From a virus: DNA of 50,672 bases. The translations under genes were made by a program, and so were the position numbers. The stretch is taken from IMG/VR virus record IMGVR_UViG_3300034026_000012, positions 1 through 50,672 of that record. The stretch is one strand, 5' to 3'. Under the pieces are notes generated by a model. That model worked only from the letters and a program-made list of their open reading frames with translations. It did no database searches and was not told the origin of the DNA. Position 1 is the stretch's first letter, and each line of letters opens with the position of its first letter. Below, piece after piece: positions 18,883 to 38,804 of this stretch.

Positions 18883-19402
18883 GTCTCGATCACCCCTTCG
18901 ACCCTGCATCTGCAACGTGGGTGGTATGGCTCGCGCGAACCCACTACGAGCGCGTTTACACATTAGGGCAGCTATGAAAGAAGTGTGAGAGAGGCTTTCG
19001 AGAGCTTTTAGACTTTTTAGATTTTTTAGATTTTTGAGGCTGGCAGTTAGAGAGGGGTTAGAACTATGCGCTTCGCGCGGCGCGTGAGAAAGCCGCGCCA
19101 GTTACGACCGCGCTGGAAAACGCGCGGGATTAGTAGGCGTCGGCCTCCGGCCTCCGCTTCTGTTTGAAATTATTTTCAGACCCTTCCCCTTCACTTCATC
19201 GTCGCACGGGCACTCGCTCGCGCAACGGCTCCGCCGCGCTCCGCTTCGCTCCGCCCCTCCGGGTGCGCTCTCTCCTTAACCCGTGCGCCTCTTTCGTTAC
19301 GGGGTAGACCCTCTGCGCTTCGCGTGCCGGGTGGGGCGCATCCTTTCGGGGCTGGCCGATGTCGGGCGAGTCTCGCGCGGGTAAAGATTCCTTTACATCT
19401 AT
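18883..19402 (-). promoter_or_regulatory. Intergenic region before the head protease
   Basis: About 500 bases without a convincing gene. It holds four T-tracts at 19006-19035 (A-tracts on the minus strand, spaced about 8-9 bases), an imperfect palindrome near 19161-19182 (GTTTGAAA/TTTTCAGAC) and, at its right edge, one copy of the 16-bp palindrome (19381-19396). A leftward promoter for the capsid genes may lie here, but I cannot see good -35/-10 boxes. Confidence 0.4.
19381..19396. promoter_or_regulatory. Palindrome GTAAAGATTCCTTTAC (copy 1)
   Basis: 16 bp with 6-bp arms GTAAAG/CTTTAC. It differs by one base from the two other copies (24047 and 37552). It sits between the HNH gene and the long gap before the head protease. 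Probable operator shared with the TPR-regulator promoter. Confidence 0.55.
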
Positions 19403-20338
19403 CTAGGCCGCCGCCGTGAAGTCTGAGAGCGAGAGCGCGTCCGGCATCTTCGAGCCTTTCTTGAGGTTGCACCGCTGGCAAAGCAGTTGAAGGTTTTCGG
19501 GGTAGTTTGTGCCGCCTTTGGAAATTGGGTGTATGTGGTCTATGTGGCAGCCGCCGCTTATATCGGCCGAGCAGTAGTTACACCTTGCCGCCTGCTTCGC
19601 ATAAAGTGACCGTACAACGTCAGCGGTAATAGTGCCGGGCGCACCTTTTAACTTGGCGTTTCGTGATTTGGCTTTTGCTAGATACTTCTCTTTATGCTTC
19701 GGGTAGTTACGCTGCCACTTGGCTTTCTCAAGCTCCCGAACGTGTTCGGGGTTTCTCTCTCTATAAGCCTTTTGGGCTGCGCGCGTGCAGAACTTACATG
19801 AGGCCGTAAGTCCATCCCAACGGGCGCGGGAGACAGTGAAGTCAGCGAGAGGCTTAAACTGCTTGCAGCGGGTGCATTTCTTCTCAGTCCGCGTCGCAAG
19901 CAGTTCCGCGTACCTTTTAGCGCGCAGGCAGCCGCAGCTTTGAATCCTCCCCCTTTTGAGGTGCTGAGAGAAGACCTCTTTAACGTTCCCGCACTCACAC
20001 CGGCACGACCAATAGACATCAACGCCGGGGTTGTGGCTGCGGCCGTTCGGATTCCTGGGGACTTTCTTGGCGACGCCGAGCGCGGTTAGAAGGCCGAACG
20101 TCTGCCCCGTCAAATCATGGTGTAAGACCTTGCCACGGCTATTTTCAGCGAGCGTGCGCTTGATGAGGCAGCCGCAACTTCTAACGCCGCCATTTCTCAG
20201 GCGGTAGGTCGGCGCAGAGGTTGAATTTCCACAGTCACACGCACAAAGCCAGAAATTAGCTTGGGGGGTGCGCCGGTCTATGCGGAGAGCAACCAGCATC
20301 CCGAATCTTTGCCCTGTGATGTCGAGGCTTCGCGGCAT
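19403..20338 (-). CDS. HNH endonuclease with zinc-ribbon repeats
   Basis: About 311 residues from the ATG at 20338. Two N-terminal repeats each read GQxFGxL followed by C-x-CGN and SCGCL (from about residues 5-50 and 75-130); this tandem module precedes nuclease domains in many phage homing-type HNH proteins. Next is a CTRCKQFKPLADF zinc pair, then a helical linker, and finally the HNH core CNYC ... HIDHIHPISKGGTNYPENLQLLC ... C (about residues 255-300). It is the outermost gene of the accessory block beside the head protease. No Shine-Dalgarno is obvious at this ATG. Such genes are often mobile. Confidence 0.8.
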   Translation of the reverse strand: MPRSLDITGQRFGMLVALRIDRRTPQANFWLCACDCGNSTSAPTYRLRNGGVRSCGCLIKRTLAENSRGKVLHHDLTGQTFGLLTALGVAKKVPRNPNGRSHNPGVDVYWSCRCECGNVKEVFSQHLKRGRIQSCGCLRAKRYAELLATRTEKKCTRCKQFKPLADFTVSRARWDGLTASCKFCTRAAQKAYRERNPEHVRELEKAKWQRNYPKHKEKYLAKAKSRNAKLKGAPGTITADVVRSLYAKQAARCNYCSADISGGCHIDHIHPISKGGTNYPENLQLLCQRCNLKKGSKMPDALSLSDFTAAA

Positions 20339-20394
20339 GATTACAGTTGAAAGGTGTGCGGGGCGCGTCAGCGGGAACGCGCCCCGGCTTTTGC

Positions 20395-20661
20395 CTACTC
20401 GTTCGCGGCGATGAGCGCCGCGTGTTCGTCCCAATCAAGCCCGCCGACTAAAGGCTGCTCGCCCTTCGCCAGCTTTAGCTCGTCCACGTCGCCCAACGCC
20501 GCGCACAGAAGCCGCGCGGCGTCCTCATACTTCAAGAGGCCGTATGAGCCGTCTTCGAGGATAGCGAGCGCGACGTGTATGCGGACGTTGAGGCGTGAGA
20601 GCGCGTCAGACCTGAAAGGCGAGACGTTCGGCCGCTCGTCTCTGTTCTCTGTCGAGTCCAC
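20395..20661 (-). CDS. Hypothetical protein, accessory block
   Basis: 88 residues, GTG start overlapping the previous stop by one base. Mainly helical, with an acidic end. No recognised domain. Co-transcribed with the five neighbours that point left. Confidence 0.5.
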   Translation of the reverse strand: MDSTENRDERPNVSPFRSDALSRLNVRIHVALAILEDGSYGLLKYEDAARLLCAALGDVDELKLAKGEQPLVGGLDWDEHAALIAANE

Positions 20662-20969
20662 TACTCGCGCCCCCCTTTCGCGGCAAGCTTGCCGATGTCG
20701 AGCCGCCGCCCCTGTTCGCAGAAGCGGTCAACCGCCTCGCCGTGCGTGTTCGTGTTACCGAACGCGCCGAGCGCGACGAAGTAAACGGCATCTTGAGCCG
20801 TGGCGCACGACTGTCTAGCCGCGACGCCCGCCACAAGCCGAATCAGCGCGAGCGCGGTTTCGTCGGCCGAGTAGACGGGTTGGGTGTCGGCCGAGTAGAC
20901 GATGATTGAGGCGAGCAGGCGGATTTCTTCATCCGTCAGGGGTTTGGGTTCGGTTCTGCCTTTCACCAC
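20661..20969 (-). CDS. Hypothetical protein, accessory block
   Basis: 102 residues, overlapping the genes on both sides. Alternate GTG starts at 20969 and 20966. Contains a helical region rich in Ala and a repeated YSADT/YSADE. No recognised domain. Confidence 0.5.
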   Translation of the reverse strand: MVKGRTEPKPLTDEEIRLLASIIVYSADTQPVYSADETALALIRLVAGVAARQSCATAQDAVYFVALGAFGNTNTHGEAVDRFCEQGRRLDIGKLAAKGGRE

Positions 20970-21271
20970 GCACCCCCTTCCCTTAGCGTCGAGTGATAGA
21001 CCCCGAGGACTTCAACCTCCGCAGCCAGATAGCGCCTCACGGGGCATTCAGGGTGCGCGCCTCTCAACACCACCTCACGGAACGCGGCAACAACGAAACC
21101 CCCGTCCGGCGTCATAACGAATACGAGGTCGCCGTCCTGATACCTCTTAGACCGGCGAAACATGAGACGGGAGTGCGCGGGAATGCCGATGTCAACGAGG
21201 GAGTCATCAGACATTCGCACGGTAAACGTCCGGCCGAGTGCGCGCCGCCCCTTCGGTGAATCTTTGCTCAT
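20963..21271 (-). CDS. Stand-alone S24/LexA-like domain protein
   Basis: 102 residues. The pattern FTVRMSDDSLVDIGIPA, then DGDLVFVMTPDGGFVV, then VVLRGAHPECP and LGVYH matches the S24 (LexA/UmuD/CI C-terminal) fold: the Ser of DDS, an IPAxS loop, a DGD strand, and a final LGV strand. There is no helix-turn-helix domain. Where S24 proteases carry a catalytic Lys (xVKR), this protein reads VVAAF, so it probably cannot self-cleave. It could act as a partner of a repressor or as a decoy. ATG start; overlaps the 102-residue gene downstream. Confidence 0.6.
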   Translation of the reverse strand: MSKDSPKGRRALGRTFTVRMSDDSLVDIGIPAHSRLMFRRSKRYQDGDLVFVMTPDGGFVVAAFREVVLRGAHPECPVRRYLAAEVEVLGVYHSTLREGGAW

Positions 21272-21489
21272 CGCGCGCCGCCCCCTTCCCGCTGTCTGCG
21301 CGTGACGTTAATGTGAAGCTCCAAAACGTCAATCTCGCCCATGCGCGGCAAGACGCCCCGGCGGAATAACCGGGGCAGCATCCTTTTAAGCTCATCCTCG
21401 GGGAGAGGTAGCGTGAGCCGGACGACGTGTGTGCTGTGCTGAAACGGAGATGCCCCCGCGCTCGCGGGGGTGGTAGGATTGTTCTGCAT
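21268..21489 (-). CDS. Hypothetical protein, accessory block
   Basis: 73 residues from the ATG at 21489, which has AAGGGAAAGG upstream; a longer reading from 21552 lacks this. Body is a small alpha/beta protein (VVRLTLPLPEDELKRML, DVLELHINVTR). Overlaps the S24-like gene start by four bases. Unknown. Confidence 0.5.
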   Translation of the reverse strand: MQNNPTTPASAGASPFQHSTHVVRLTLPLPEDELKRMLPRLFRRGVLPRMGEIDVLELHINVTRRQREGGGAR

Positions 21490-21570
21490 TGACCTTTCCC
21501 TTCTAAGGTGGGTTGATGCCGAAGGCGGGCGGGGCGTCCCTTCTAAAGTCACCCCGCCCGCCCGTTGTGT

Positions 21571-21744
21571 TTAGCTCCACCAATCGGCCATGCGCGCGTT
21601 TAGCGCCTGCCGCTGCGCCGTCGTCATCAGGTCAACGTCCTCAACTTCGTCCGTGTCAAGAAACTCGGGGTCAAGGGCGTCGGCCATGCTGAAATCCTGC
21701 CCGATGTTGCTCCTGTATTCGGCGGCGGCGTCGGCGGTTGTCAT
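21571..21744 (-). CDS. Small acidic protein, first gene of accessory block
   Basis: 57 residues, starting MTTADAAAEY, acidic with Trp-Trp near the end. It has a strong Shine-Dalgarno (GAAGGAG) eight bases before the ATG and a good promoter (see 21785-21813) just upstream, so it is probably real although short. Unknown function. Confidence 0.6.
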   Translation of the reverse strand: MTTADAAAEYRSNIGQDFSMADALDPEFLDTDEVEDVDLMTTAQRQALNARMADWWS

Positions 21745-21784
21745 CTATCTTTTCTCCTTCGTTTGGTGTGCCCCAACGAAGGAA

Positions 21785-21813
21785 ATTCTACTACCCCTAG
21801 CAGAATTAGTCAA
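21785..21813 (-). promoter_or_regulatory. Leftward sigma70-type promoter
   Basis: Minus strand TTGACT (21813-21808), 17-base spacer, TAGAAT (21790-21785). Drives the small leftward genes from 21744. Its -35 box lies inside the loop of the palindrome 21799-21825, so binding there should repress it. Confidence 0.65.
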
Positions 21814-21835
21814 GATAATTCTGCTACCCCTAGCA
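21791..21835. promoter_or_regulatory. Composite operator between divergent accessory genes
   Basis: A perfect inverted repeat AGCAGAATTA/TAATTCTGCT (7-base spacer, 21799-21825) nested in two direct copies of CTACCCCTAGCA (21791-21802 and 21824-21835; 33 bases apart). It lies between the leftward gene at 21744 and the rightward gene at 21881. Confidence 0.65.
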
Positions 21836-21880
21836 TGTTTTTCTTGTCTTTTTTTTCGGGGTGTGGCAACATCTCCCGCC

Positions 21881-22117
21881 ATGAGCGATGAATTGACCAT
21901 CACGCAGGCAACGGAGCAGCTTCAAGCCAGAGGGATTAAGGCGTCGCGGCGAACAGTGGCGTCATGGGTTGAGCAGGATTTATTCAAAACAAAGCGATGG
22001 ATTAACGCGCCGACGGGGGGCTTTTGGGTAGTCTCCGCGCGCGAGGTCGCCACGTTTGAGAAGCCGACAGTGGGTAGACCTTCAACGAAGGCGAGCAAGA
22101 AAGGCGGTAAGAAGTGA
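21881..22117 (+). CDS. Excisionase/MerR-like small DNA-binding protein
   Basis: 78 residues, first of a rightward block. It reads SDELTITQATEQLQARG, then SRRTVASWVEQDLF, then GFWVVSAREVATFEKP: the layout of helix-turn-helix domains of the excisionase/MerR class, with a following wing. The end KASKKGGKK is encoded by a 27-base sequence that recurs at 22904. Stop overlaps the next start (GTGA). It could bind the operator just upstream and control both directions. Confidence 0.65.
   Translation: MSDELTITQATEQLQARGIKASRRTVASWVEQDLFKTKRWINAPTGGFWVVSAREVATFEKPTVGRPSTKASKKGGKK
22087..22113 (+). repeat. 27-bp repeat, copy 1
   Basis: Identical to 22904-22930. Copy 1 codes for the end KASKKGGKK, and its AAGGCGG is the ribosome site of the next gene; copy 2 is read as GEQERR in another frame. 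A partial third copy (about 22627-22645) precedes the GTG at 22646. Confidence 0.75.
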
Positions 22118-22653
22118 TAAGTAAATCCTCAAAGAAGAGAGCGCCTAAACTTCGTATCGCTACACTTGTTCAAGCCGAAAATTCCAGAGTTTCCATTGCC
22201 ACGCTGGTTAATAAGAGACCGGTTCGCAACTCAAACACACCTGTCGGTCACAGAAGAATACCCTGCCTGCCTAACCCTTTCCCGACGGATATTCAAAGCC
22301 TCATTGAAACTGCCATTCTCGTTAGTGGTCTAGCGCCCTTTGCTTTTAAGGTCATCGCCTTATGGGTCGAAGACCGGAAGGCGCGTAAGGTGCGAGTCGT
22401 AATCGGTGAGCATGAAATCAGGATTGAAACGGAAGGTCAGCCAAGCTGGAAGGAGATTGAGCGTATATGCAAGGAGGCGAGAAAGCTGGCGAAGGGAAAA
22501 GACGCGAACGACCTGAAAGTCATCTTGCCGCGTGGCGTTGACCCTTCGATTCCTGTCGAGATGTTGAGAGAGGTCAGTCGAAAGAAGGATACACCGAAGG
22601 CTAAGGCCGAAGCTTCAACTAAGGTGGGTAAGAAAGGCGGGAAGGGTGCCTAA
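22114..22653 (+). CDS. Membrane-linked protein, EACC1-like (tentative)
   Basis: 179 residues, GTG start. A hydrophobic helix (IETAILVSGLAPFAFKVIALWV) near residues 63-84 is followed by DRKARKVRVVIGEHEIRIE and a helix. This order, a membrane helix then a short beta hairpin of the RVVIGEHEIRI type, resembles the effector-associated constant component EACC1 of bacterial conflict systems; I cannot confirm it. Lys-rich ends. The stop of this gene overlaps the next start. Lower GC than the phage core. Confidence 0.4.
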   Translation: MISKSSKKRAPKLRIATLVQAENSRVSIATLVNKRPVRNSNTPVGHRRIPCLPNPFPTDIQSLIETAILVSGLAPFAFKVIALWVEDRKARKVRVVIGEHEIRIETEGQPSWKEIERICKEARKLAKGKDANDLKVILPRGVDPSIPVEMLREVSRKKDTPKAKAEASTKVGKKGGKGA

Positions 22654-22927
22654 CCCAACGCCCGATAGCGTAGAACTGGCGAGGTCAATCCTCGACGCGG
22701 ACGAAAACCCGCTCGTTAATTATCTGGCGCTAACCATTGGCCAAGTGATGAGGCTTAACTATGAAGGACTCGCGGAAATCTTCGATGACCGCCGCGGAGA
22801 GTTTGAGGCGTGCGGGGCTGGGGACTTATTAGCTAAGATTCAGTCCGATGTTGACGGCCTCTTTTCGGGATTCATTAACGTGGAAAAAGAACAGGCGGGT
22901 GATGAAGGCGAGCAAGAAAGGCGGTAA
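22646..22927 (+). CDS. Hypothetical protein, rightward accessory block
   Basis: 93 residues, GTG start inside the end of the previous gene; the Shine-Dalgarno is the AAAGGCGGG of the previous gene's Lys-Gly-rich tail. Helical, acidic end encoded by a copy of the 27-base repeat read in another frame. No recognised domain. Confidence 0.5.
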   Translation: MPNPTPDSVELARSILDADENPLVNYLALTIGQVMRLNYEGLAEIFDDRRGEFEACGAGDLLAKIQSDVDGLFSGFINVEKEQAGDEGEQERR

Positions 22928-22930
22928 GAA
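22904..22930 (+). repeat. 27-bp repeat, copy 2
   Basis: Identical to 22087-22113 but read in a different frame. Directly followed by the ATG of the 143-residue gene. Confidence 0.75.
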
Positions 22931-23362
22931 ATGACCACGAGTAGAGAATGGCTGGCCGCCCTGTCAGAAAAAGTGCGGCTGAAGAATGAACGGGTGCGGC
23001 GGCTAGAGGGCAACGGGGAGAAGGCCGTTGACGAGTTGAGGGCTGCGGTCGAAAAGGATGTCGAATATATCAACCGGGAGGTCTACTTACACGAAGACCC
23101 GCTACAGGTTCACGCCGACTCGGCATTCGGCTTTCGCGTCACCAACACCAATACTCAAGAAATGTCGCTCGTAGAATTAAGGCCGAAGGATGAGACGCTG
23201 TACGTGGACACACCCCGCAGGCGGCCTCTGATACTTTTCGCGGATTCGGGCGGCTCCGGTGACGTGCTTTTCTCGACAGACAGCGAGCGCCGGGTTAGCG
23301 CGGAGGAACTTTCTCGGTTGATTCTAGAGCCGCTGGTTAAATCGGAGTACGGCTTAGATTGA
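22931..23362 (+). CDS. Hypothetical protein, rightward accessory block
   Basis: 143 residues, ATG right after the repeat that supplies its AAAGGCGG ribosome site. A helical start (RLKNERVRRLEGNGEK region) and a beta-rich end (FGFRVTNTNTQ, LFSTDSERRVSAEE). No recognised domain. Confidence 0.5.
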   Translation: MTTSREWLAALSEKVRLKNERVRRLEGNGEKAVDELRAAVEKDVEYINREVYLHEDPLQVHADSAFGFRVTNTNTQEMSLVELRPKDETLYVDTPRRRPLILFADSGGSGDVLFSTDSERRVSAEELSRLILEPLVKSEYGLD

Positions 23363-23375
23363 AAGGTGGGAATAG

Positions 23376-23945
23376 ATGAGTGACGACAGGGTGATAATGA
23401 ACTTGGCGCGGACTCTTTTCCTATCGCTTTTGTGTCTGGTCGTCTCTGCCACCGCAAGGCCGCGAGCGCCACAGAGCGGCGACGTTTTCAGTGACGAGGC
23501 GCTTGCTAAAGAATCGAAGACGTTAAGTCAACTCAAACGGCCTGCGAGGCTGAAGCTCAAACGTGCTCTTGACCTTCTTCAAGAGGCGCACACAACCGCG
23601 TCCGTTTCATCTGATTTCGAGCAGGTGGCGGCAATCTCGCGGCGTGCGGACGACGCCGTTGACCTTGCCGCTGAGGTGATTCCTGACGGCGTGTTGAAGG
23701 GCACGCTTATATCCTGCAAAAAAGCTTTGGGGCATTCCTTCATTTTGCGCTTAGTGCAAAAGGGCGCTTTAAACCCGTCAGAACCTCCGACCTCTGAAGC
23801 TATGGAAGATATAACGCGCAGGTATCAACTGGCGGGCGTGCCGGAATACGAACGACCGGCAAAGGTTTTGGATTTCGCTAAAGCACACTTACTTATCGCT
23901 AGTAAGATTTGTTCTGGGGCTGGCATAATCCGCTCGGGGCGGTGA
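23376..23945 (+). CDS. Exported protein, last gene of rightward accessory block
   Basis: 189 residues. A signal peptide is clear near residues 8-27 (NLARTLFLSLLCLVVSATA). The mature part is helical with no membrane segment, possibly a periplasmic protein. No family recognised. It ends about 100 bases before a palindrome copy and about 140 before a terminator. A moron-type exclusion or surface function is possible but not shown. Confidence 0.55.
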   Translation: MSDDRVIMNLARTLFLSLLCLVVSATARPRAPQSGDVFSDEALAKESKTLSQLKRPARLKLKRALDLLQEAHTTASVSSDFEQVAAISRRADDAVDLAAEVIPDGVLKGTLISCKKALGHSFILRLVQKGALNPSEPPTSEAMEDITRRYQLAGVPEYERPAKVLDFAKAHLLIASKICSGAGIIRSGR

Positions 23946-24046
23946 CGCCTTCGGGCGTGTGGGAGGCAGCCAGAGCAGAGCTTGAGCACCCGACCCCTCC
24001 CGCTGCCGCGCGAGCGGACACCGCCGCTCAAACTTGCCCCAATGAT

Positions 24047-24062
24047 GTAAAGAAATCTTTAC
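24047..24062. promoter_or_regulatory. Palindrome GTAAAGAAATCTTTAC (copy 2)
   Basis: Perfect palindrome arms GTAAAG/CTTTAC with centre AAAT. The reverse strand reads GTAAAGATTTCTTTAC, exactly the copy at 37552. It lies at the end of the rightward accessory block, before the terminator. Confidence 0.6.
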
Positions 24063-24086
24063 TCAGAAATCGCCCCCAGTTGCCCC

Positions 24087-24122
24087 CGCCCCTCGGAAAG
24101 TGCAAACGGGGCGTTTTTCTTT
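24087..24122 (+). terminator. Rho-independent terminator of the rightward accessory block
   Basis: 6-base GC stem CGCCCC/GGGGCG around a 15-base loop, followed by TTTTTCTTT. It ends the transcript of the genes 21881-23945, where they meet the leftward gene at 24185. Confidence 0.7.
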
Positions 24123-24170
24123 CCTGACCCGCCTCTGGGACGCTCTGGGACGGCCTAGCCGGCTTATTAG
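24107..24170. repeat. 64-bp direct repeat, left copy
   Basis: Matches 31921-31984 at 56 of 64 bases. It directly follows, on the minus strand, the stop of the 132-residue gene. The pair brackets the block from portal to second tape measure. It includes CTGGGACGCTCTGGGAC. Confidence 0.7.
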
Positions 24171-24184
24171 AGCCGCCCCGCCGC

Positions 24185-24654
24185 CTAGTGTTCGGCGTCC
24201 TCGCCCGTCACATGATGCTTGTACCACGCCCACGCCTCATCATCCGACAGGCCGAAGGGCATCGCATCCCCCTCGAAACGCTCGCGGAGCGCCGCCGTAA
24301 ACTGCCCGAGCTTTAAGCGGAGTATGTCGAGCATTTGGGCGTGCAGGTCGGAGACTGAATCAATGATTTCAGTCCAACTCGAAACGACGGGGAAGATGTC
24401 GCGCCCTATCTTCGCCGTGTCTATCGCGGGGAAGGACTCAAGCGCGGAGATGAAAGGCAGGATGCCGTCATTGATGAGGGCCGCGAGCGCGAAGTCAATG
24501 GCCTTGTCGCACTCAGACTCGGCCGCGCCGTGCTCCCTCGCGTGCGGAAGGCAAAGCGGGCGTGGACGCATTGGATAGTCCAAACGTCATCACAGCCCGC
24601 CGCCCCACACTTAGCCGAGAGTGAACGCAAAAGCCTTGCTCTAGGGTCTTCCAT
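24185..24654 (-). pseudogene. Small gene after TMP2, apparently frameshifted
   Basis: An ATG at 24654, ten bases after the second tape measure stop, opens a frame with protein-like content (KCGAAGCDDVWTIQCVHARFAF) that becomes shadow after about 24545. From there a frame shifted by -1 runs to 24185 (REHGAAESECDKAIDFALAALI, then DEAWAWYKHHVTGED). The joined product would be about 156 residues. I see no slippery heptamer at the join, so an indel or sequencing error is likelier than programmed shifting. Alternatively the real gene starts at the TTG 24583 or ATG 24571, which would give 128-132 residues. Confidence 0.5.
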
Positions 24655-24663
24655 GAGGCCGGA

Positions 24664-27600
24664 TTATAACCCTATTAGCTTCTGTAACTTCTCCCTGTTG
24701 TGCCCCCCTTCTAAGGACGTGACCACCGCGTCAAAAGCCACACGCGGCTTCTCCTTCGCGCCCGCCGCGAACACGTCGCCGGGCCTTGTCGCCTGCACCT
24801 TAGAGTTAAATTCCCTGACGGCGCCCGCCAACTCTTTCTGCGTTTCCGCCAACTCCTTCTGTGTGGCCTGTACCTCTTTCAGCGCCGCCGCCATCTCGGC
24901 CGACTTGTCATCGCCGCCCGAGCCGGACGCGCGGTTGTTAGTCGGCGCGGAGGCTGACCGCCCGCGCTCCTCCTGTTCCTTCTGTTGCCGCTCGCGCATC
25001 TTCGCCATCACGCGAGCCAGCGGGGTCTTACCTCGCGGCGTGATGTCAGCCTGACCCGCGCGCAGCGCGTCAAAGGCCGCGTGCCCGCCGTTGCGCGCCA
25101 CGCTTTGCGAATCAATCACATGCTCGCCGCCGTCGAGCAGGGCGCGCACATGGTCGAAGCCGCGCGTCATGCCGGGGACGGCGCCGCCGTCAATGCGCCG
25201 GATGAAGCTGTTAGCCGGGCTGGATGCGTCCGCCAGTTCTTTGTTGGCGAGTAGCTTTGATGCGGTCTGCCCCGTCTGCTCGGCGTAGCCTGTGAGCAGT
25301 TCCTTAACCGGGTCGAGCCTCACAGTTTCCAACAGGTGGTTTTTAACCTGCCCCTTCCCGAACGCGGACTCACCTATTTGCTTGGCGGCCGTTAGAGTCT
25401 TCAGGTCTTTAACGTCGAGCGCGTATTCCGATTTGATGACCGGCTTTAAAGCCTTCTCGTCGCGGTGTGAAAAATGCTTCCACAACAGCAGCCCGCCCAC
25501 GGCGGCGGCGGCAATTCCAATCGTCCACGGGTTAGTCATCAGGGCTAACATGCCGCCCGACGAAGCGCCCGCGCCCGCACCGGCCGCCGCGCCCCCACCC
25601 GCCGCAGAACCGGAAGCCGTACCAGCGCCGACGCCCACCATTGCGGGAGCCGCGCCGAACTCTGCCGCGAACTTCGCAGGGTTAACCCACGGGCCAGCCG
25701 CCGCGCCTTTGGACGCCGCCGCGCCACCGAAGCCGAAAAGAGACTTGATGCCGGCCTTAAACCCTCCGGCCTTGAAAGCGTTGACGACGCCGCCGGCGTT
25801 GCCGAGGCTGAGGCCGCCGCCCCCGCCGCCGGACGCGATACTGTCCGCGCTCAGACTGGCTTTAGGACTGAGAACGTTATAAATCTTCTGCTGTACCTTC
25901 TCTTTGGCGAGCCGGACAAGGAAGTCTTTGGCGTCATCAAGGATGCCCTCAAACAACCCTTGCCAGTCGCGCCGGATGGCCGCGTTCAGAGCGCCGCCGA
26001 AGTAGCCAGCAATAACGCCGCTGATTTTCTTCGCGCGCTTTTCCGCTTCATCGGTAGAGGCTTTGATGAGCGGCAGCACTTCCTGAAAAGCGCCCTTCGT
26101 CTCCTGTGCTACCAACTTCACGTTGGCGAGGGCTTGGGGCGCCACGCGCTGCGCGATGATGCCCGCCTGTTGCTCAATCGGACTCGTCTCGCGCTCGTAC
26201 CAATCAACCGCCAGCGCCCGCCGCGCGTCCTCGGGGGTGAACAGTTTCGAGCCGGGGCGGAAGCTGCCGCCGTCCGCCGCCGCCTGCGCCGCCGCTTGCG
26301 CCCGCTGCGCTTCTATCAGCGTCGCAACGTGCCCTTGAGCCAGCCGGACGAAGTTGCTAGAGACTTGCAGTTCTTCGGCCATCAGCTTCACGCGGAGCGC
26401 GTATTCGCTCTGCGCCTGCACGGACGTGCGCTCACTCGCGGCGGCGGCCTTCTCGACTTGGAACAGCCATTCGAGGAAAGCCCTCTGATTGCCCGCGCCT
26501 ACGAAGCGGCCGACGCCGCCGCGCAAGTCGCCCGACGCCGGGGTGTCGGAGCCGAGCGCGCGTTGCTCCATCTCGGGCGCGAATGGGGTGCCGGGGAAGC
26601 CCGAGAAGTCGGGCGCCTTGACGATGGCGACGGGGACGGGGGTTTGAGTAGAGACGGACAAGGAGCCTGCGCCGCCAGTCGCGCGCGTGTAGTCGCGCAA
26701 TATGGTATTGACGTATTCGGGCGTTTGTCCGTTCTGAGGTATCCCCTGCGCGCGTTGGGCAGCTTCTTCACTGACTGTCCAGCGGCGGCCGGAGCCGCCG
26801 ACGTAAGAATTAACGTCCGGTCGGTTCGGTAGATGAGCAAGCACCGCGCCCTCGCCCGCGTTATAGGCAGCCAGCGCAAGGCGCACGTCCCCCTTGAACA
26901 TCTTGAGCAATCCGGCAAGATACTTTGTGCCGCCCATGATGTTCTGCTCAGGGTCGAAGATGTCTTTGACGCCGAGACTAGCCGCCGTCGCGGGCATCAA
27001 CTGCATCAACCCGCGAGCGCCCATAGGCGAGACGGCCTTGCTGTGATAGTTGGACTCCTTTTTGATGACGGCTTTAATTAAGTCAGGGTCAACTTTGAAT
27101 CGCTCTGCCGCTTTCCTCACGAACTCGTCTATCCGCTCGCGGCTGTTCCCCTGACCCTGTAGCAGACCGCGATTAAATCCCTGCACCGCGCTAAAGCTCG
27201 CTTCAAAACCCAACTTGTCAAAGACGCGCGACGGTGAGTGCTGGTCAAGCTCGTCGCGCCAGCCCTGCTCAAGTTGCCCGGCCGCCCCCGCCCCCGCCTC
27301 GTACAGCTTCGGCCCCGTCTGCTTAACGCTATCCGCCGCGCCGCTGAAAGCCTCCGCGCCGAGCTTCGGCAGACTCACGCCGAGCGCCCGCAAGCCATCC
27401 TCAACCGCCGACAGCGCCGAGTCCGTGCCCGCGCTGACGTAGCCCGCGAGCCGTTCGGCCGCGCCGCCTTGTAAACCCTGATTAAGAGCCTTCTGGCCGA
27501 CGAGCTTGTGTCTGAACAGAGACTCGGTAGCCTTCCCCATAATCACGCTCATATTGTCTTCGGTCATCGCCTCCTGACCGACGAGCGTGTTCAGGTTGAT

Positions 27601-28893
27601 GTCCTTGCCCGTACCGCCGAACTCCTTTTGCAGCCCGCGCACGATGGCGTTAATAGCCGCGTTCGCGTCAAGGCGGTTGTGCTCTGCCATGTCGCGCGCG
27701 ACGGCTATGGCCTGCTCCTCTGAGAGCCGCGACAGCTTAGGGTATTGACTCTGTAATTCCTCCGCGATGTAGCGCCAGCCGTTGACGCCCGACTCTTGAA
27801 GCTGGCGCGACATCTCCTCCGCATTCACGCGCTGCTTGCCCTTGATGTCCGCGAGCGCTTTTGTGATGGAGATAACCTTTTGCTCTGCTTCTTCACCGAC
27901 CAAACCCATACCCGCCGCCGCGTCGCCCGCCGTGCGCAGTAGCGGGATAATCTCATCACGCTTGAAGTTGAGCGCGAGCAGGCGGTTAGCCTGCCCCGTC
28001 GCCTGCGGAATCTTGAGGGGAGATTCGACCTGCGCGAACTGTGCGACCTCATCAAAGAAGCGTCCGGCCTGCGCGTCGCCGCCGAGCTTGCGCCGAAGCC
28101 CGAGCATGGTCGCCTCTTTGAGCCGGTTGAAGTCCATGCCCGCAGAGATGCCCTGTTGCACCTGTTCGACCGCGCCCGTGATTACGCCCGAGATGATGTT
28201 GCCCGTCGCCACGCTCAGAGCGTTGCCGACGAAGCCGCCGCCAGCGCCCCCGCCGCCCGACACCCCGAACGCGCGCTTGAAGCCGTCAGACGCGCCCTTG
28301 CCGAGCCTGCTAAAGAAACCCGCGCCGAGTTCTTTTTCGTAGTCCTTCGCCGCCGCCCGCGCCGTCGCCTGCGCGGTCTTTAGCTTCTCGCGCTCCTGCT
28401 TCTGGAACTCGCGCGTTGCGAGTGAGGCCGTGCGAATCTCGGCCTGCTTCATGCGCTCGACTTCTACGAACCGTTGACGGTCAAGGCGCATCTCGGCAGA
28501 CGTGGCGGCAGTCACAGACCTGACGTGCTGCTGATTGAAGGTTTCTATGTTGCGGTAGGTGGATTGAAAGTCGCGCGACAGGTCTAACATGTGGCGGTCT
28601 ATGACCGCGAAGCTTTGAAGGAATTGGCCCTGAAAACTTCTGTTGAAGGCCGCCGCGTCCGCCAACATCTGGCGGTGCAGGTCAAGCATCGCGTTACGCA
28701 TCCCGCCGCCCCGACGCGATGACCTGTCCATCTCGGCAAAGGGGTTAGTAAAGCCGCTCATGTCCAGCGGCTTTCCATCCCTGCCCGCGACGACGGCGCG
28801 GAAGTTCTTGGCCTTCGCCGCTACGCGGTCGAAAGTCTGTTCGGCCTGCTTACCGTCGGCCGTAATCTCTATGTGAACCCTGCGCTCTCCCAC
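24664..28893 (-). CDS. Second tape-measure-like protein with lytic transglycosylase domain (TMP2)
   Basis: 1409 residues. The start (VHIEITADGKQAEQTFDRVAAKAK) and the region RLKEATMLGLRRKLGG ... LKIPQATGQANRLLALNFKRDEI are a typical tape measure N-terminal domain. A transglycosylase-like domain spans about residues 581-690, with probable catalytic Glu613 in KKESNY and GARGLMQLMPAT. The C-terminal part (about 1032-1409) is homologous to TMP1, for example NPWTIGIAAAA, WKHFSH, HLLETVRLD, RRIDGG and VARNGGH. There is no chaperone pair upstream: small DNA-binding-type genes and the MuF-like gene lie there instead. It could be an alternative tail measure, or an ejected wall-degrading protein. Confidence 0.85.
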   Translation of the reverse strand: MGERRVHIEITADGKQAEQTFDRVAAKAKNFRAVVAGRDGKPLDMSGFTNPFAEMDRSSRRGGGMRNAMLDLHRQMLADAAAFNRSFQGQFLQSFAVIDRHMLDLSRDFQSTYRNIETFNQQHVRSVTAATSAEMRLDRQRFVEVERMKQAEIRTASLATREFQKQEREKLKTAQATARAAAKDYEKELGAGFFSRLGKGASDGFKRAFGVSGGGGAGGGFVGNALSVATGNIISGVITGAVEQVQQGISAGMDFNRLKEATMLGLRRKLGGDAQAGRFFDEVAQFAQVESPLKIPQATGQANRLLALNFKRDEIIPLLRTAGDAAAGMGLVGEEAEQKVISITKALADIKGKQRVNAEEMSRQLQESGVNGWRYIAEELQSQYPKLSRLSEEQAIAVARDMAEHNRLDANAAINAIVRGLQKEFGGTGKDINLNTLVGQEAMTEDNMSVIMGKATESLFRHKLVGQKALNQGLQGGAAERLAGYVSAGTDSALSAVEDGLRALGVSLPKLGAEAFSGAADSVKQTGPKLYEAGAGAAGQLEQGWRDELDQHSPSRVFDKLGFEASFSAVQGFNRGLLQGQGNSRERIDEFVRKAAERFKVDPDLIKAVIKKESNYHSKAVSPMGARGLMQLMPATAASLGVKDIFDPEQNIMGGTKYLAGLLKMFKGDVRLALAAYNAGEGAVLAHLPNRPDVNSYVGGSGRRWTVSEEAAQRAQGIPQNGQTPEYVNTILRDYTRATGGAGSLSVSTQTPVPVAIVKAPDFSGFPGTPFAPEMEQRALGSDTPASGDLRGGVGRFVGAGNQRAFLEWLFQVEKAAAASERTSVQAQSEYALRVKLMAEELQVSSNFVRLAQGHVATLIEAQRAQAAAQAAADGGSFRPGSKLFTPEDARRALAVDWYERETSPIEQQAGIIAQRVAPQALANVKLVAQETKGAFQEVLPLIKASTDEAEKRAKKISGVIAGYFGGALNAAIRRDWQGLFEGILDDAKDFLVRLAKEKVQQKIYNVLSPKASLSADSIASGGGGGGLSLGNAGGVVNAFKAGGFKAGIKSLFGFGGAAASKGAAAGPWVNPAKFAAEFGAAPAMVGVGAGTASGSAAGGGAAAGAGAGASSGGMLALMTNPWTIGIAAAAVGGLLLWKHFSHRDEKALKPVIKSEYALDVKDLKTLTAAKQIGESAFGKGQVKNHLLETVRLDPVKELLTGYAEQTGQTASKLLANKELADASSPANSFIRRIDGGAVPGMTRGFDHVRALLDGGEHVIDSQSVARNGGHAAFDALRAGQADITPRGKTPLARVMAKMRERQQKEQEERGRSASAPTNNRASGSGGDDKSAEMAAALKEVQATQKELAETQKELAGAVREFNSKVQATRPGDVFAAGAKEKPRVAFDAVVTSLEGGHNREKLQKLIGL

Positions 28894-28902
28894 GGTGTAC
28901 CC

Positions 28903-29133
28903 CTAACGCTTCATGCCTTCGGGCGGGATGAGTGCGGCGATGATTTTACGCCTGCCGCAGCGGTCGCAAATTTCCGTGGGGGCTGTGTCGCTGTTGGCTT
29001 CGGAGAGTGAAGCGTAAGAGCGAGTTTCCGCGCCGTGCCTGCACAGCCCGGCCTTCTTCGCGCCCCTCAAAAGAGCGCGGCGCGCGGCCCTCGTGTTGCG
29101 GCCGTCAACGGGTCTGCCGGTCTGTTGTGCCAT
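28903..29133 (-). CDS. Small zinc-finger protein
   Basis: 76 residues from the ATG at 29133, close behind the previous stop. Basic start (RAARRALLRGAKKAGLC), then CDRCGRRK near the end. Co-transcribed with TMP2. Unknown function. Confidence 0.5.
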   Translation of the reverse strand: MAQQTGRPVDGRNTRAARRALLRGAKKAGLCRHGAETRSYASLSEANSDTAPTEICDRCGRRKIIAALIPPEGMKR

Positions 29134-29138
29134 CGGTG

Positions 29139-29417
29139 TTAGCCGTTCGCCGCCAGCCTGAGTTTGGGCCTGCGCGCGATGGTCTGGATTTGGAATTGCG
29201 GCTGGAAGCCGCGAACCCACGCGACGAACGAGCGCCGATAGACCATGTAGCCCATTGAAGTTTTCATGCCCTCAAGGGTGCCATCCTCTATCAAGCCGAC
29301 GAGCGTCGGGCGCGAAGGAACCGGGTCAAATATCTCCTGCGCGCGGAGTATTTCTTCGACCCGCTGAAGGCGCATGAGAGTTTCCGTCTTGAAGTCGAAG
29401 TTAAAAACCTTTCTCAT
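29139..29417 (-). CDS. Small DNA-binding-type protein, paralog of 35444-35710
   Basis: 92 residues. It shares with the 88-residue protein at 35444-35710 the line P(V/I)PSRPTL followed by IEDGTLEG, GY and SF.AW. This looks like a winged helix-turn-helix of the excisionase type (a helical start, SRxTLxxxIEDGTL as turn and recognition helix, then a beta wing with GYxV). The two copies sit upstream of the two leftward blocks, TMP2 and terminase. Confidence 0.6.
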   Translation of the reverse strand: MRKVFNFDFKTETLMRLQRVEEILRAQEIFDPVPSRPTLVGLIEDGTLEGMKTSMGYMVYRRSFVAWVRGFQPQFQIQTIARRPKLRLAANG

Positions 29418-29421
29418 GTAC

Positions 29422-30372
29422 TCACTCCGATTTATTAACTTGAAGCGCCCGAACGTAACAGCCGCAACCTACGTGGTATGGCGGGAAGCCGCGCCCCTCG
29501 GCGACTAAGTCGTCGTCAATGTGCGTGTCTGTGTGCCTGTCCTTGACGTAGCCGACCGGGTCGCTCGCGAACGCGCGGCCGAGGTCTGACTTGTAAAGCT
29601 CCAGCGCGTAATCGCCCGGCTCAAGCTGAGAAAGTCGCCCCACGGCGGCCGCGGCCACCGACACCTTGACGAGCTTGCCGTCGAGCGTGGGGCAGATGTT
29701 GGTCGTGCATTTGCCGTCCTCGATGACGACGATGCGCGCGTACTCGACCTCTGCCTGCGCGAGCGACCCGAAGTGTGCGTAGTTGCGAATGCGCTGCACG
29801 CTCGACTGCACGATGGTCTCGACGTTGAAGTCCGAGAGGTTGTCGAGCTTGCCCGCGGCCGCCTTCCGAAAATCGTCAAGCTCCTCACTCGTCCCGCGCC
29901 CGAAGAGCGCCGCGCCCTTCTCCAGATACTCGTCGCGGATGAACGTCTTGAGTTCGTCGCGCCGGTTGTTGACGAAGGTCGAAAAGTAAAAGTGGTCGAG
30001 CTTGCTGAAGAATTTGACCGCGCGCGTGTCGGCGCCGCCGAAGCGCATCGTGACGGGAGGGTCATGGCCTCCGAAGGGGCTGTTATCGCGGAGGCGGTAA
30101 AACCTGTAGACCTGCTCGGTCGTGCGCTTGACGGCGGCGCGGGCTCGCGGCGAAGAAAACTGAGCGCGGTAGGCGTCGGCGATTTCGTCAACGACGGCGT
30201 CGCCGAAGTCCTCGGCTGAAGCGAAGTCGTCAGTTGAAGAGCGCTCAAGCAGAGCGCGAATGCGCTCCAGAGCAGCGTCACGCGCGCGCGCGGCGACGGG
30301 GCCGGCGAGCCTGACGTAGTTAGCAATGAACTTGTCGAGTAGCGCATTGATCTCCTCTTCGCTCAGGCGGCC
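29422..30372 (-). CDS. MuF-like minor head protein (frameshift-dependent)
   Basis: About 316 residues as an extension of the portal frame. A frame open from 30372 carries the whole domain: LSEEEINALLDKFI at the start, then YRFYRLRDNSPFGGHD, and the family motif DGKCTTNICPTLDGK followed by PPYHVGCGCY, the usual MuF/SPP1 gp7 ending. No ATG, GTG or TTG occurs in this frame before the ATG at 30048, which would remove the first third of the domain. A -1 shift at the A-tract in the last portal codons enters this frame exactly. A shorter protein from ATG 30048 (208 residues) is the alternative. Confidence 0.75.
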   Translation of the reverse strand, partial: GRLSEEEINALLDKFIANYVRLAGPVAARARDAALERIRALLERSSTDDFASAEDFGDAVVDEIADAYRAQFSSPRARAAVKRTTEQVYRFYRLRDNSPFGGHDPPVTMRFGGADTRAVKFFSKLDHFYFSTFVNNRRDELKTFIRDEYLEKGAALFGRGTSEELDDFRKAAAGKLDNLSDFNVETIVQSSVQRIRNYAHFGSLAQAEVEYARIVVIEDGKCTTNICPTLDGKLVKVSVAAAAVGRLSQLEPGDYALELYKSDLGRAFASDPVGYVKDRHTDTHIDDDLVAEGRGFPPYHVGCGCYVRALQVNKSE

Positions 30373-35443: not shown

Positions 35444-35710
35444 TTAACGATGTAGGGCACGCGTCGGCTGGGCGCCGATTAGCGCGTAGTCCTCGGGGTG
35501 GAGCGAAAGTAGCCACGCCTTGAAGGAGTCCTCAAAGACGTAGTAGCCGTATTCGCTTTTGTAGCCTTCAAGGGTGCCGTCCTCGATCCTTCTAATCAAG
35601 GTGCGGCGCGAAGGGATGGGGTTTATGACGCGGGTAGCCCGCAGGATGGCTTCAACGTGGGATAGGCGCAAGCGGGGGCGCGCCTTTGTTCCAAAGTCGT
35701 AATTCTTCAC
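35444..35710 (-). CDS. Small DNA-binding-type protein, paralog of 29139-29417
   Basis: 88 residues. Shares PIPSRRTL, IEDGTLEG, YGYYV and SFKAW with the 92-residue protein at 29139. Winged helix-turn-helix of excisionase type is likely. It is the first gene of the terminase block. Confidence 0.6.
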   Translation of the reverse strand: MKNYDFGTKARPRLRLSHVEAILRATRVINPIPSRRTLIRRIEDGTLEGYKSEYGYYVFEDSFKAWLLSLHPEDYALIGAQPTRALHR

Positions 35711-35823: not shown

Positions 35824-36255
35824 TTACCTGATTTCGATGCTCGTTATGGAAAGGTCGGATCGGCCCCCCGCGCCACAAGCATACGCCCTTATCCGGTATC
35901 TTTTTCCCTTCACTAAAAACGCTTCAAAATGTGCCTGGTCTGCCTGCGAAAGGCACGCCGGAAAATCCTCATCATGGAACCAGACATCGAAGCGTCGGGT
36001 ACTAGGGAGTTTCAAAGTTAGGCCAGCCATATCAGAGGTGTCTTCGTGATATTGAATCGCAACCAAGCTCACATCGAATGTCTTCACTTGGCATGATGCA
36101 TCACGTTTGAGATATGAATTAAAGTTTATTACACCGGCCATTCGACCGCCGCGATACTGAACAGCAGGGCAGCTATCTATATTTTGCTGGGCAGTGACAG
36201 GTAGCATTAGAACACCCCCCATCACAGCTATGAGATAAACCCGTACTACACGCAT
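35824..36255 (-). CDS. Exported protein of control region
   Basis: 143 residues from the ATG at 36255, with GGAG ten bases upstream. Signal peptide MRVVRVYLIAVMGGVLMLPVTAQ (likely cut near AQQ). The mature part is beta-rich with three Cys and no membrane segment. It follows the TPR gene, with about 28 bases between. A possible envelope or exclusion factor; unknown. Confidence 0.6.
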   Translation of the reverse strand: MRVVRVYLIAVMGGVLMLPVTAQQNIDSCPAVQYRGGRMAGVINFNSYLKRDASCQVKTFDVSLVAIQYHEDTSDMAGLTLKLPSTRRFDVWFHDEDFPACLSQADQAHFEAFLVKGKRYRIRAYACGAGGRSDLSITSIEIR

Positions 36256-36283
36256 GGCTGTCATCTCCACTGATTCTCTCGAA

Positions 36284-37528
36284 TTATTCCCCGCGCTGGA
36301 GTGTTGGGTGTCGAAACTTTAATTTGTAATTCAGATTTTGCTTCGTTACCCCTAGTTTCATGGCCGCTTCAGTAACCCTGTCCGATGTAGTATGGAGCGC
36401 GTTCCGGATTACCTGTTTTTCCAGGCGCAACATGGCATCGTCGAGCGGCAGCTCGAACTCACTAAATACAGGGGCAAGCAATTCCTCAGTCACCACGTTG
36501 CCAACTTCGATGGCTTTTTTACTGCCGAGAAATTCCAACGCTACTGCCCGCGCACGGATAAAGGTTGAGAGAGAGTCATCCCAACGCCATAGTCGCGCTA
36601 AGGCCCGCCCCAACGTAATCAGATTCTCGAACAGTAGTGCCGTGTCGTCACCGGCCTCTGTCAACACTACCGCCTCTCGGGCTGTACGTTCAGCGGCTTC
36701 ATATTGCTCCTCCGCTATGAATACGCGCGCGCGGGTCTCCAGTGCTCTGCTCGCCTCATTCCTTTGGCCTAGTGAGATGAACAAATCCTCCGCGCGGCGG
36801 AGGTGCTCGTGAGCTTCAGCATATTGAGCAGCTACCAAATACATCGCCCCGAGGTTGCCCTCTAGGTAGGCCAAATATCTATAGTTCTCTGCCTTTTCAA
36901 GATGAAAGCGACATGCCACATACGCTGATAGGGCGCGCCTCAGCCGCCCCGCGTTTTTGTAGAACAAAAATAACTCGTTATGAAAGCGAGCCTTCAAAGA
37001 ATGGTTCTCGCTCGCTTCGATCATTGAGGCCACACCGGTAAGGAGGACATACGCTTTACGATGATGCCCGTCCGATCTCTCGACCATCGCTAAATTAACA
37101 ATGCCCGTCAACCTCAACTCGTCGTCGGATTGAAGCCGAGCGACCGACTGCTTCAGGTGTATTCTTGCCTCATCAAAAGCCCCTTCGCGGAAATAACAAA
37201 CACCTAAGCCGTGCTCAGCTTCAGCCACTTTACGAAGGTCGCCCGTTCTCCCGTACATTGTTATGGCTTCACAGAGCAAATCCTTCGCGGCGTCCTGGGA
37301 CCCTTCAGCGGCGCGCGCGTTCCCCAGATAGCTTGATAATCGCCCGGCCCGTAACAGCGCCTCGGCCGCAGCTTCACAACCCAACCCCTCTACATTCGGG
37401 CGCCCGCCCACGCCATTCCATAAATCACCCAAGACCAGACAGGCGCCTGTGTAGTCGCCAGCCTCCTCCAAAGTTCGCGCTTTTTCACACCGCGCCAACG
37501 CCTCAGCATCCCTTGTATCTAAAGCCAT
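36284..37528 (-). CDS. TPR regulator with C-terminal Fis-type helix-turn-helix
   Basis: 414 residues from the ATG at 37528, chosen because the longer start at 37591 would place the palindrome and a promoter inside the gene. At least seven TPR-like helix pairs span residues about 5-330 (for example AEAEHGLGVCYFREGAFDEA, then the AYLEGNLGAMYLVAAQYAEA unit). The last 45 residues are a Fis/HTH_8 domain (LEKQVIRNALHTTSDRV, then AAMKLGVTKQNLNYKL). Such proteins sense a ligand or peptide through the TPR part and bind DNA as dimers. Position between repressor and late genes suggests a late-gene activator. Confidence 0.7.
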   Translation of the reverse strand: MALDTRDAEALARCEKARTLEEAGDYTGACLVLGDLWNGVGGRPNVEGLGCEAAAEALLRAGRLSSYLGNARAAEGSQDAAKDLLCEAITMYGRTGDLRKVAEAEHGLGVCYFREGAFDEARIHLKQSVARLQSDDELRLTGIVNLAMVERSDGHHRKAYVLLTGVASMIEASENHSLKARFHNELFLFYKNAGRLRRALSAYVACRFHLEKAENYRYLAYLEGNLGAMYLVAAQYAEAHEHLRRAEDLFISLGQRNEASRALETRARVFIAEEQYEAAERTAREAVVLTEAGDDTALLFENLITLGRALARLWRWDDSLSTFIRARAVALEFLGSKKAIEVGNVVTEELLAPVFSEFELPLDDAMLRLEKQVIRNALHTTSDRVTEAAMKLGVTKQNLNYKLKFRHPTLQRGE

Positions 37529-37551
37529 AGTTTCACGTACGTTCGGACGGA

Positions 37552-37567
37552 GTAAAGATTTCTTTAC
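37552..37567. promoter_or_regulatory. Palindrome GTAAAGATTTCTTTAC (copy 3)
   Basis: Lies 24 bases before the TPR gene ATG and overlaps the -35 box (TTTACA) of the opposite promoter at 37563. Identical to the copy at 24047 on the other strand. Likely binding site of the TPR regulator or another dimeric factor. Confidence 0.65.
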
Positions 37568-37591
37568 AACACATTTTTCAGGGCATATCAT
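37563..37591 (+). promoter_or_regulatory. Promoter of the secreted peptide gene
   Basis: TTTACA (37563-37568), 17-base spacer, TATCAT (37586-37591): a good sigma70-type promoter about 60 bases before the peptide ATG. The palindrome covers its -35 box, so a protein bound there would repress or, by contact, activate. Confidence 0.65.
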
Positions 37592-37649
37592 GCCCCACTT
37601 GTCCTGTCAGCTAACCCACAACCATCAACCATCAACCAGGAGATACTTC

Positions 37650-37895
37650 ATGAAGAACGTCACACGTACACTGCGCAATCTGCTGTTCTTGAGCCTCTTG
37701 ATCGCGGCGTCGGCGAACCAATCTAACGCCGGAGATTACCCGATGCCGGGCGCACCTACACCACCGCCCCCACCGGCCGCGCCTATGAGTACGGGGGAAG
37801 ATGCCTCGGAAACGACCGACGGGACGAGCTTGATGACTACCATCGTCGTGCAGCTCGCCGGTTCAGCTCAGACCGTTCTAAACATCCTGCTGTAA
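37650..37895 (+). CDS. Small secreted peptide precursor
   Basis: 81 residues, ATG at 37650 with AGGAG in good position. Clear Sec signal peptide (residues 1-27: MKNVTRTLRN, then a hydrophobic core, cut after SNA). The rest is short: a Pro-rich stretch (residues 31-46, with five Pro in a row), an acidic Thr/Ser linker, then a hydrophobic end (about 61-81: LMTTIVVQLAGSAQTVLNILL minus its first residues). It could be cut to release a signalling peptide from the end. It is divergent from the TPR regulator and has its own terminator, so it is transcribed as a single gene. Confidence 0.7.
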   Translation: MKNVTRTLRNLLFLSLLIAASANQSNAGDYPMPGAPTPPPPPAAPMSTGEDASETTDGTSLMTTIVVQLAGSAQTVLNILL

Positions 37896-37914
37896 GTCTG
37901 GATATGAGTTAAAG

Positions 37915-37956
37915 AGTTGGGCCTCGCTCGGGCAGGGCGGGGCTCAACTTTTTCTT
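37915..37956 (+). terminator. Strong terminator after the peptide gene
   Basis: 13-base-pair stem (AGTTGGGCCTCGC with GCGGGGCTCAACT, two wobble pairs), 9-base loop, then TTTTTCTTT. It closes a one-gene transcript. Confidence 0.85.
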
Positions 37957-37987: not shown

Positions 37988-38473
37988 TTACCTAGATGCC
38001 TGCAACCGTGAAGATGTATTTTGTTGGGCAGCTCCTTTCTCCTCGTCGATAACTAGGCTGTATAAGAGGGTCAGCTCTCGCAGATTCTCAGCCGATAGAT
38101 CGTAGAAATGTGCGAACATCTCGGAGCCTCGCGTGAACAGCGCTTCGCGCACAAGTCTGTGCAACATCTCCTCAAAATCTTTCCCCAAACTTTCAGCTAG
38201 TTTTGAGATTAGCTTTCGCTCTGGCTCAGTTAAAACTATGCCGGGAATATCAGAAACTAACTGAGGGCCTTCACCAGTAAGCAACCAATCGATGGAATGT
38301 TTTGTAGAATTCCTAAAGTTCCTCAAGTGATCGAAACTTAGCTCCGTCTCACCCTTAATAACCTTGTAAACGGCCTTATCCGTCTTAAATCCGAGCTTTT
38401 CAGCAATAAATTTCTTGCTATCGGTACCGCATGCCTTCTTAAAAGCTGCTAACAGTCTAGTCCCTATGTCCAC
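37988..38473 (-). CDS. CI-like repressor (no protease domain)
   Basis: 161 residues from a GTG at 38473, giving VDIGTRLLAAFKKAC, SKKFIAEKLGF, TDKAVYKVIKGE and SIDWLLTGEGP: the helix-turn-helix pattern of Phage_CI_repr proteins. The rest is helical (LISKLAESLGKDFEEMLHRL) with no S24 domain, so control is probably not by RecA. Start choice: a strong rightward promoter lies at 38501-38529 and the palindrome 38475-38495 precedes this GTG; longer readings (ATG 38560 or ATG 38653) would run through that promoter. The start lacks a Shine-Dalgarno, so it may be leaderless. Confidence 0.65.
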   Translation of the reverse strand: MDIGTRLLAAFKKACGTDSKKFIAEKLGFKTDKAVYKVIKGETELSFDHLRNFRNSTKHSIDWLLTGEGPQLVSDIPGIVLTEPERKLISKLAESLGKDFEEMLHRLVREALFTRGSEMFAHFYDLSAENLRELTLLYSLVIDEEKGAAQQNTSSRLQASR

Positions 38474-38474
38474 G

Positions 38475-38495
38475 TTTTCTATAATTTGTAGAAAA
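38475..38495. promoter_or_regulatory. Immunity operator TTTTCTA-N7-TAGAAAA
   Basis: Perfect inverted repeat with 7-base arms and 7-base spacer, directly before the repressor start and just upstream of the early promoter. A similar half-site (TTCTACATTTTCT) overlaps the -10 region of that promoter. Confidence 0.6.
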
Positions 38496-38500
38496 TCAGA

Positions 38501-38529
38501 TTGACACTCTTCTACATTTTCTCTAACAT
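38501..38529 (+). promoter_or_regulatory. Early rightward promoter
   Basis: TTGACA (38501-38506), 17-base spacer, TAACAT (38524-38529). Transcription would start about 38536, then AGGAGG at 38549 and TTG at 38562. A textbook promoter facing the early genes. Confidence 0.8.
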
Positions 38530-38561
38530 CCTGTTTCGGACGAAACACAGGAGGGCACATC

Positions 38562-38804
38562 TTGTCATCCCCATACATAGAAATCAAGACTTGGATGCTC
38601 CGTGAGCGGCTGAACTTCACCAGCTTAGCTGCCCAGCTAACAGACGCCGGCACGCCGTGCCGGCGTCAAGAACTCTCGATGATGGCTCGTCAGGTGCGTG
38701 AGTATCCGCATTTACAACAGGCCGTCGCCGAACTCATGGGGAAGTCAAGGGTCAGGTTGTTCGGGCCGTCGCGACAGAGAACGCGACGACACCGCGCAGC
38801 CTAA
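38562..38804 (+). CDS. Early regulator, Ner/Cro-like (TTG start)
   Basis: 80 residues. TTG start with a perfect AGGAGG seven bases upstream; the ATG at 38595 lacks one. Contains a helix-turn-helix-type run LNFTSLAAQLTDAGTPCRRQEL and a basic end RRHRAA. First gene after the early promoter and opposite the repressor, the place of Ner in Mu or Cro in lambda. Confidence 0.65.
   Translation: MSSPYIEIKTWMLRERLNFTSLAAQLTDAGTPCRRQELSMMARQVREYPHLQQAVAELMGKSRVRLFGPSRQRTRRHRAA

Follow-up and report, generated by a model that had tools for sequence, protein, structure and literature searches.

A gene for a TPR protein ending in a Fis-type helix-turn-helix (HTH) and a divergent gene for an 81-residue secreted-type protein were found side by side in a virus contig of 50,672 bases (the window), next to the gene for a CI-type repressor. 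A 16-bp palindrome, which recurs elsewhere in the window, lies in their shared promoter region, and the pair occupies the slot where related phages carry peptidase genes. We propose as the probable explanation that the pair is an accessory regulatory module: the TPR protein would bind the palindrome, regulate the divergent genes and sense a signal through its TPR domain.

The window encodes a GemA-like protein, an AAA ATPase, a putative transposase with weak similarity to phage transposases, and a terminase and a portal protein that are conserved among related phages; judged by these genes, it belongs to a Mu-like temperate phage. An Acidobacteriota-like host is a guess suggested by similar proteins. 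Early genes run rightward from about 38.7 kb and late genes leftward from about 35.7 kb. While the GC content of the contig is 64%, that of the stretch from 36 to 39 kb is 50-55%. The repressor gene (37988-38653, minus strand; phrog_8, E 5e-6) is convergent with the small secreted-protein gene, and it was also identified by direct comparison with four related phages (L002, L017, L026 and L021). The left border of the slot is a gene for a small excisionase-like protein (35444-35710, minus strand), which is conserved in relatives. Between this gene and the TPR gene, a 148-residue protein of secreted type, as read from its sequence, is encoded 13 bp downstream of the TPR gene (35824-36270, minus strand) and probably shares an operon with it; profile searches gave no family match for it.

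The TPR regulator and the divergent secreted-type protein

The TPR gene lies on the minus strand, and its start is ambiguous: the open reading frame (36284-37591) encodes 435 residues from the first ATG and 414 residues (36284-37528) from the ATG at 37528. The TPR_12 family matched the protein in three stretches (E 2.4e-13), and a weak match to TPR_MalT was also found (E 7e-5). The HTH_8 domain, at 36317-36424 on the minus strand, scored 25 bits in a six-frame search, above the curated cut-off of 22, and 21.6, just below it, in a scan of the whole protein. The original prediction of a 414-residue TPR protein with a Fis-type HTH at its end was thus borne out. In the 435-residue form the TPR matches cover residues 87-351 and HTH_8 covers residues 390-425, an order which, as predicted, is unlike that of RRNPP receptors. 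In a comparison with solved structures, ZraR (1ojl) gave the best match to the HTH (E 0.005); Fis matched as well, whereas TyrR did not. The nearest plasmid matches to the HTH were sigma-54 regulators of Azospirillum, with 46-50% identity. No AAA+ sigma-54 interaction domain was found in the protein with Pfam, and the NCBIfam regulator matches spanned the HTH segment only. NCBIfam, which includes an AimR model, gave generic TPR matches and no receptor match. A structure prediction from the single sequence was mostly helical and of poor confidence (mean pLDDT 51).

The divergent gene (37650-37895, plus strand) encodes a protein with a signal peptide, a Pro-rich middle, an acidic linker and a hydrophobic, uncharged C-terminus. 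An AGGAG ribosome site lies a few bases 5' of its ATG. The signal peptide is Sec-like, with cleavage after SNA as judged by eye, which leaves a predicted mature part of about 54 residues with a charge of -5; the last 18 residues are hydrophobic (mean 0.51, moment 0.31). These features agree with what had been predicted for this gene. With its size and with signal features recognised by eye, it corresponds to the neighbouring reading frame for a secreted propeptide, 10-100 residues long, that is sought in RRNPP systems. The composition of the mature product would suit a short pheromone no better than it suits an effector or a peptide that seeks membranes.

The gene had also been predicted to possess its own promoter and terminator. 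The terminator is strong: an intrinsic hairpin with a U-tract at 37911-37953 on the plus strand has 19 pairs including the A-U edges, with -33.5 kcal/mol for the folded stretch and a z score of -5.4. The promoter was less well supported. A promoter-like site, TTTACA-17-TATCAT, is present at 37563-37591 on the plus strand with a score of 10/12, a score within chance, as 2.3 equal sites are expected in the 3.3 kb scanned; taken alone, this match is weak. It is very improbable that the 81-codon frame is not a gene at all, as its chance-level promoter score and the lack of a homologue in any search would suggest, since the ribosome site, the signal peptide and the strong terminator directly after the stop argue against it.

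No relative of the TPR protein or of the peptide was confirmed in viral contigs, phages or plasmids. A scan of genome contigs with six exact 8-residue patterns, which detect close relatives only, returned only sigma-54-type regulators that share the HTH, and 398 genomes from the phylum of such a regulator, an unlikely host group, contained no relative of the pair. Two degenerate HTH patterns matched no viral contig; they were derived from the motif of a putative family, A..LG[IV][ST]...L...L..RH..L, which is a lead only.

A recurrent palindrome at the shared promoter region

As had been predicted, a 16-bp palindrome, GTAAAGATTTCTTTAC, lies between the two genes over the -35 box of the peptide promoter (37552-37567; GTAAAGA-TT-TCTTTAC), and we regard it as a candidate operator. 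If the TPR protein has 435 residues, the palindrome falls within its reading frame; if it has 414, the palindrome precedes its ATG by 23 bases. The window holds 64 perfect palindromes with 7-base arms and a spacer of 0 to 6 bases, and one such palindrome by itself is weak evidence. The recurrence is more telling. With up to three mismatches, four sites were found versus 0.49 expected, and none of 100 shuffles reached four; two of these sites are exact in the arms and one has a single mismatch. An exact copy of the 16-mer is found in a 3' region at 24047-24062 (minus strand), and another with one mismatch follows closely on the stop codon of a gene for an HNH endonuclease (19381-19396, plus strand). 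The peptide VKKSLLR is common to two open reading frames spanning the palindrome because the DNA repeat underlies both.

The box recognised by TyrR has the form TGTAAA-N6-TTTACA. Allowing up to two mismatches, this form was found at four sites versus 0.11 expected, three of them with one mismatch. Since TyrR carries a C-terminal HTH, a protein with a Fis-type HTH is a plausible binder of such a TyrR-box-like palindrome. In Azospirillum the TyrR box is reported as TGTAACG-N4-CTTTACA (PMC6375630).

Among 18 related phage records, which are possibly fragments, no copy of the palindrome with 0-1 mismatch was found, and matches with two mismatches stayed at the level of a reversed-pattern control. 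TPR_12 had no match in the same records either. By this comparison the palindrome appears to be tied to the accessory content of the window, which does not in itself prove the identity of the binder. The palindrome was also considered as an operator of the core repressor and rejected: the repressor is retained in relatives in which no copy with 0-1 mismatch was found, although their operators may have diverged. In viral contigs, the palindrome plus its flank gave two unrelated matches. One of them lies in an unrelated prophage (L088:3736-3754), where the identical stretch of 19 bases is flanked by two small HTH genes and surrounded by GATGTAAAG repeats; it is probably an operator sequence that arose by convergence.

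An insertion of about 10.5 kb (18964-29504) houses two of the three palindromes. It separates a MuF-like gene (29505-30347) from a head gene (17602-18963); in L002 the counterparts of these two genes are neighbours. The insertion also contains a second excisionase-like gene, the HNH endonuclease gene and a gene for a tape-measure-like protein with a lytic-transglycosylase-like segment, as read from the sequence (24664-28893); another tape-measure-like gene is at 6562-11598. In L015, an HNH relative is found at the same junction of MuF-like and head genes. The idea that the block 19381-24062 is a transposon whose terminal repeats are the palindromes was rejected, as no target duplication was seen by eye. 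Within the insertion, two copies of a TTCTRCTACCCCTAGCA-like repeat occupy intergenic DNA at 21785-21840, upstream of a plus-strand operon; they look like operators of another regulator.

The palindrome could instead belong to a regulator of the host or to a different protein of the phage, or be a signal of element borders or 3' ends; its position at the promoter of the TPR and peptide genes would then be a coincidence. Two of the three copies do lie at 3' ends on either side of a low-GC block. However, one copy lies exactly within the divergent promoter region, and the palindrome is missing from relatives along with the TPR protein; we consider this reading unlikely.

The slot beside the repressor

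Relatives of the phage were found through the terminase. In seven of them a CI-type HTH repressor is encoded at the corresponding place; four (L002, L017, L026 and L021) match the repressor of the window directly, and the repressor profile was built from all eight repressors and is therefore not an independent test. The next gene downstream of the repressor encodes a separate Peptidase_S24 protein in six relatives (E 1e-13 to 1e-22). In L021 it is replaced by an M78/ImmA-like peptidase (L021:4942-5367, E 3e-8) shortly downstream of the repressor, with one small open reading frame between. Several relatives have unrelated secreted or accessory genes next, ahead of the excisionase-like gene. The closest relative also carries a GroES-like gene in its early region (L002:1003-1320).

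No S24 gene was found in the slot after the repressor of the window. Its only S24-like open reading frame is 17 kb away and encodes a small protein (20963-21271; E 4e-4, or 4e-8 with a local profile). In the alignment this protein has Ala at the lysine position common to the S24 proteins of relatives, and it is possibly inactive. Since relatives have an S24 or M78 peptidase after the repressor and the window has none there, the TPR/peptide module stands in the place of the peptidase module. The predicted placement next to the repressor was correct, and in relatives this place is taken by S24 or ImmA-like modules. The S24 and M78 proteins may be read as induction modules, by analogy with what LexA-like and ImmA proteins are known to do. 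The absence of the TPR/peptide pair from related phages indicates an accessory insertion, GC-poor by its composition, rather than a core switch shared by the phage group. Independently of whether the pair is a sensor, the comparison shows that putative induction modules (S24, ImmA-like and here TPR/peptide) are exchanged beside the repressor in this phage group, which makes this slot a concrete site at which to seek new ones.

Proposed function and relation to known systems

In the proposed mechanism, the TPR protein would bind the TyrR-box-like palindrome as a dimer via its C-terminal HTH and would repress or tune the divergent secreted-protein promoter, and probably its own gene too. Its TPR domain would sense something that alters DNA binding, and the module may thus serve as an alternative induction sensor. 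The role of the TPR protein as binder, the direction of control, the dimerisation and the binding of a ligand by the TPR domain are inferred. In favour of the mechanism are the combination of TPR and HTH_8, the palindrome over the peptide -35 box with its two further copies, its likeness to the TyrR box, the joint absence of palindrome and TPR protein from the 18 related records, and the S24 or M78 modules that fill the slot in relatives. Against this mechanism, the two other palindromes are at the 3' ends of genes, away from recognisable promoters, and no homologue was found that could show co-conservation of regulator, peptide and site. The ligand may derive from the 81-residue product, which is possible but less likely than not, or it may be a host protein or another molecule.

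As a special case of this mechanism, the 81-residue product would be exported, processed and taken up again to bind the TPR domain and shift operator binding, so that the peptide level would inform the lysogeny decision. The divergent arrangement of the regulator and the secreted gene around a common palindrome fits such a switch. So does the slot, which in relatives houses putative induction modules including an ImmA-like peptidase; in ICEBs1, the ImmA protease acts downstream of RapI (PMC9956884). However, the predicted peptide is long and acidic with an uncharged hydrophobic end, whereas the usual pheromones have 4-10 residues (PMC10075063), no importer or protease was identified, and no homologues were found for an analysis of co-evolution. 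RRNPP systems, moreover, are described from Gram-positive Firmicutes. We regard this special case as doubtful. Alternatively, the 81- and 148-residue proteins could be effectors of a lysogenic-conversion moron, acting in envelope modification, superinfection exclusion or as a membrane-active peptide, with the TPR protein as a co-acquired local regulator and no cell-cell signalling. The unrelated secreted and accessory proteins in the same slot of relatives, the GC content of about 50-55% versus 64% for the phage and the possibly membrane-seeking C-terminus make this a serious contender, with a little less than an even chance, although it explains neither the absent S24 partner at the repressor nor the extra palindrome copies.

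The broadest claim of the original prediction was a separate class of phage peptide-communication switch. In this form, with an inverted TPR/HTH architecture that replaces the S24 module and makes induction depend on a secreted peptide encoded by the phage, it appears quite improbable. The predicted control of lysogeny or late genes by the pair is likewise conjectural. If the pair is a sensor, it would extend peptide-responsive control of lysogeny to phages beyond the known Firmicutes systems, and would be a system missed by the published RRNPP detector owing to its N-terminal TPR.

The likeness of the module to arbitrium (AimR/AimP) and other RRNPP systems is that a TPR transcription regulator adjoins a gene for a small secreted protein, and to arbitrium also that it belongs to a temperate phage and lies beside lysogeny control. 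By the published definition, however, the TPR protein is not an RRNPP member because its TPR domain is N-terminal and its HTH, of Fis type, is C-terminal; RRNPP_detector discards clusters with an N-terminal TPR (PMC10075063). In RRNPP systems, a short mature peptide from the C-terminus is taken up again and bound by the TPR domain; no homologues of the phage peptide were found in which a conserved end could be recognised. The TPR protein may still work in an RRNPP-like manner despite the inverted domain order. The literature, covered in part, contained no report linking RRNPP with Acidobacteria and none describing an architecture of N-terminal TPR and C-terminal Fis-type HTH. The module resembles ImmR/ImmA/RapI-PhrI of ICEBs1 in that a CI-like repressor has a neighbouring signal-relay module, and the L021 slot has its ImmA-like M78 peptidase. 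Unlike in ICEBs1, no peptidase lies beside the repressor of the window, and Rap-type receptors have no DNA-binding domain (PMC10075063).

With regulators of the TyrR and NtrC type, the phage protein shares the C-terminal Fis-type HTH, and its candidate operator is close to TGTAAA-N6-TTTACA. It differs from them in having no AAA+ domain and in having TPR in place of their sensor domains, and the resemblance to TyrR itself is limited to the box. MalT has an NTPase domain and an HTH of LuxR type. A TPR-like sensor followed by a C-terminal HTH relates the phage protein to regulators of this type as well, but it has no NTPase domain and its HTH is of Fis type.
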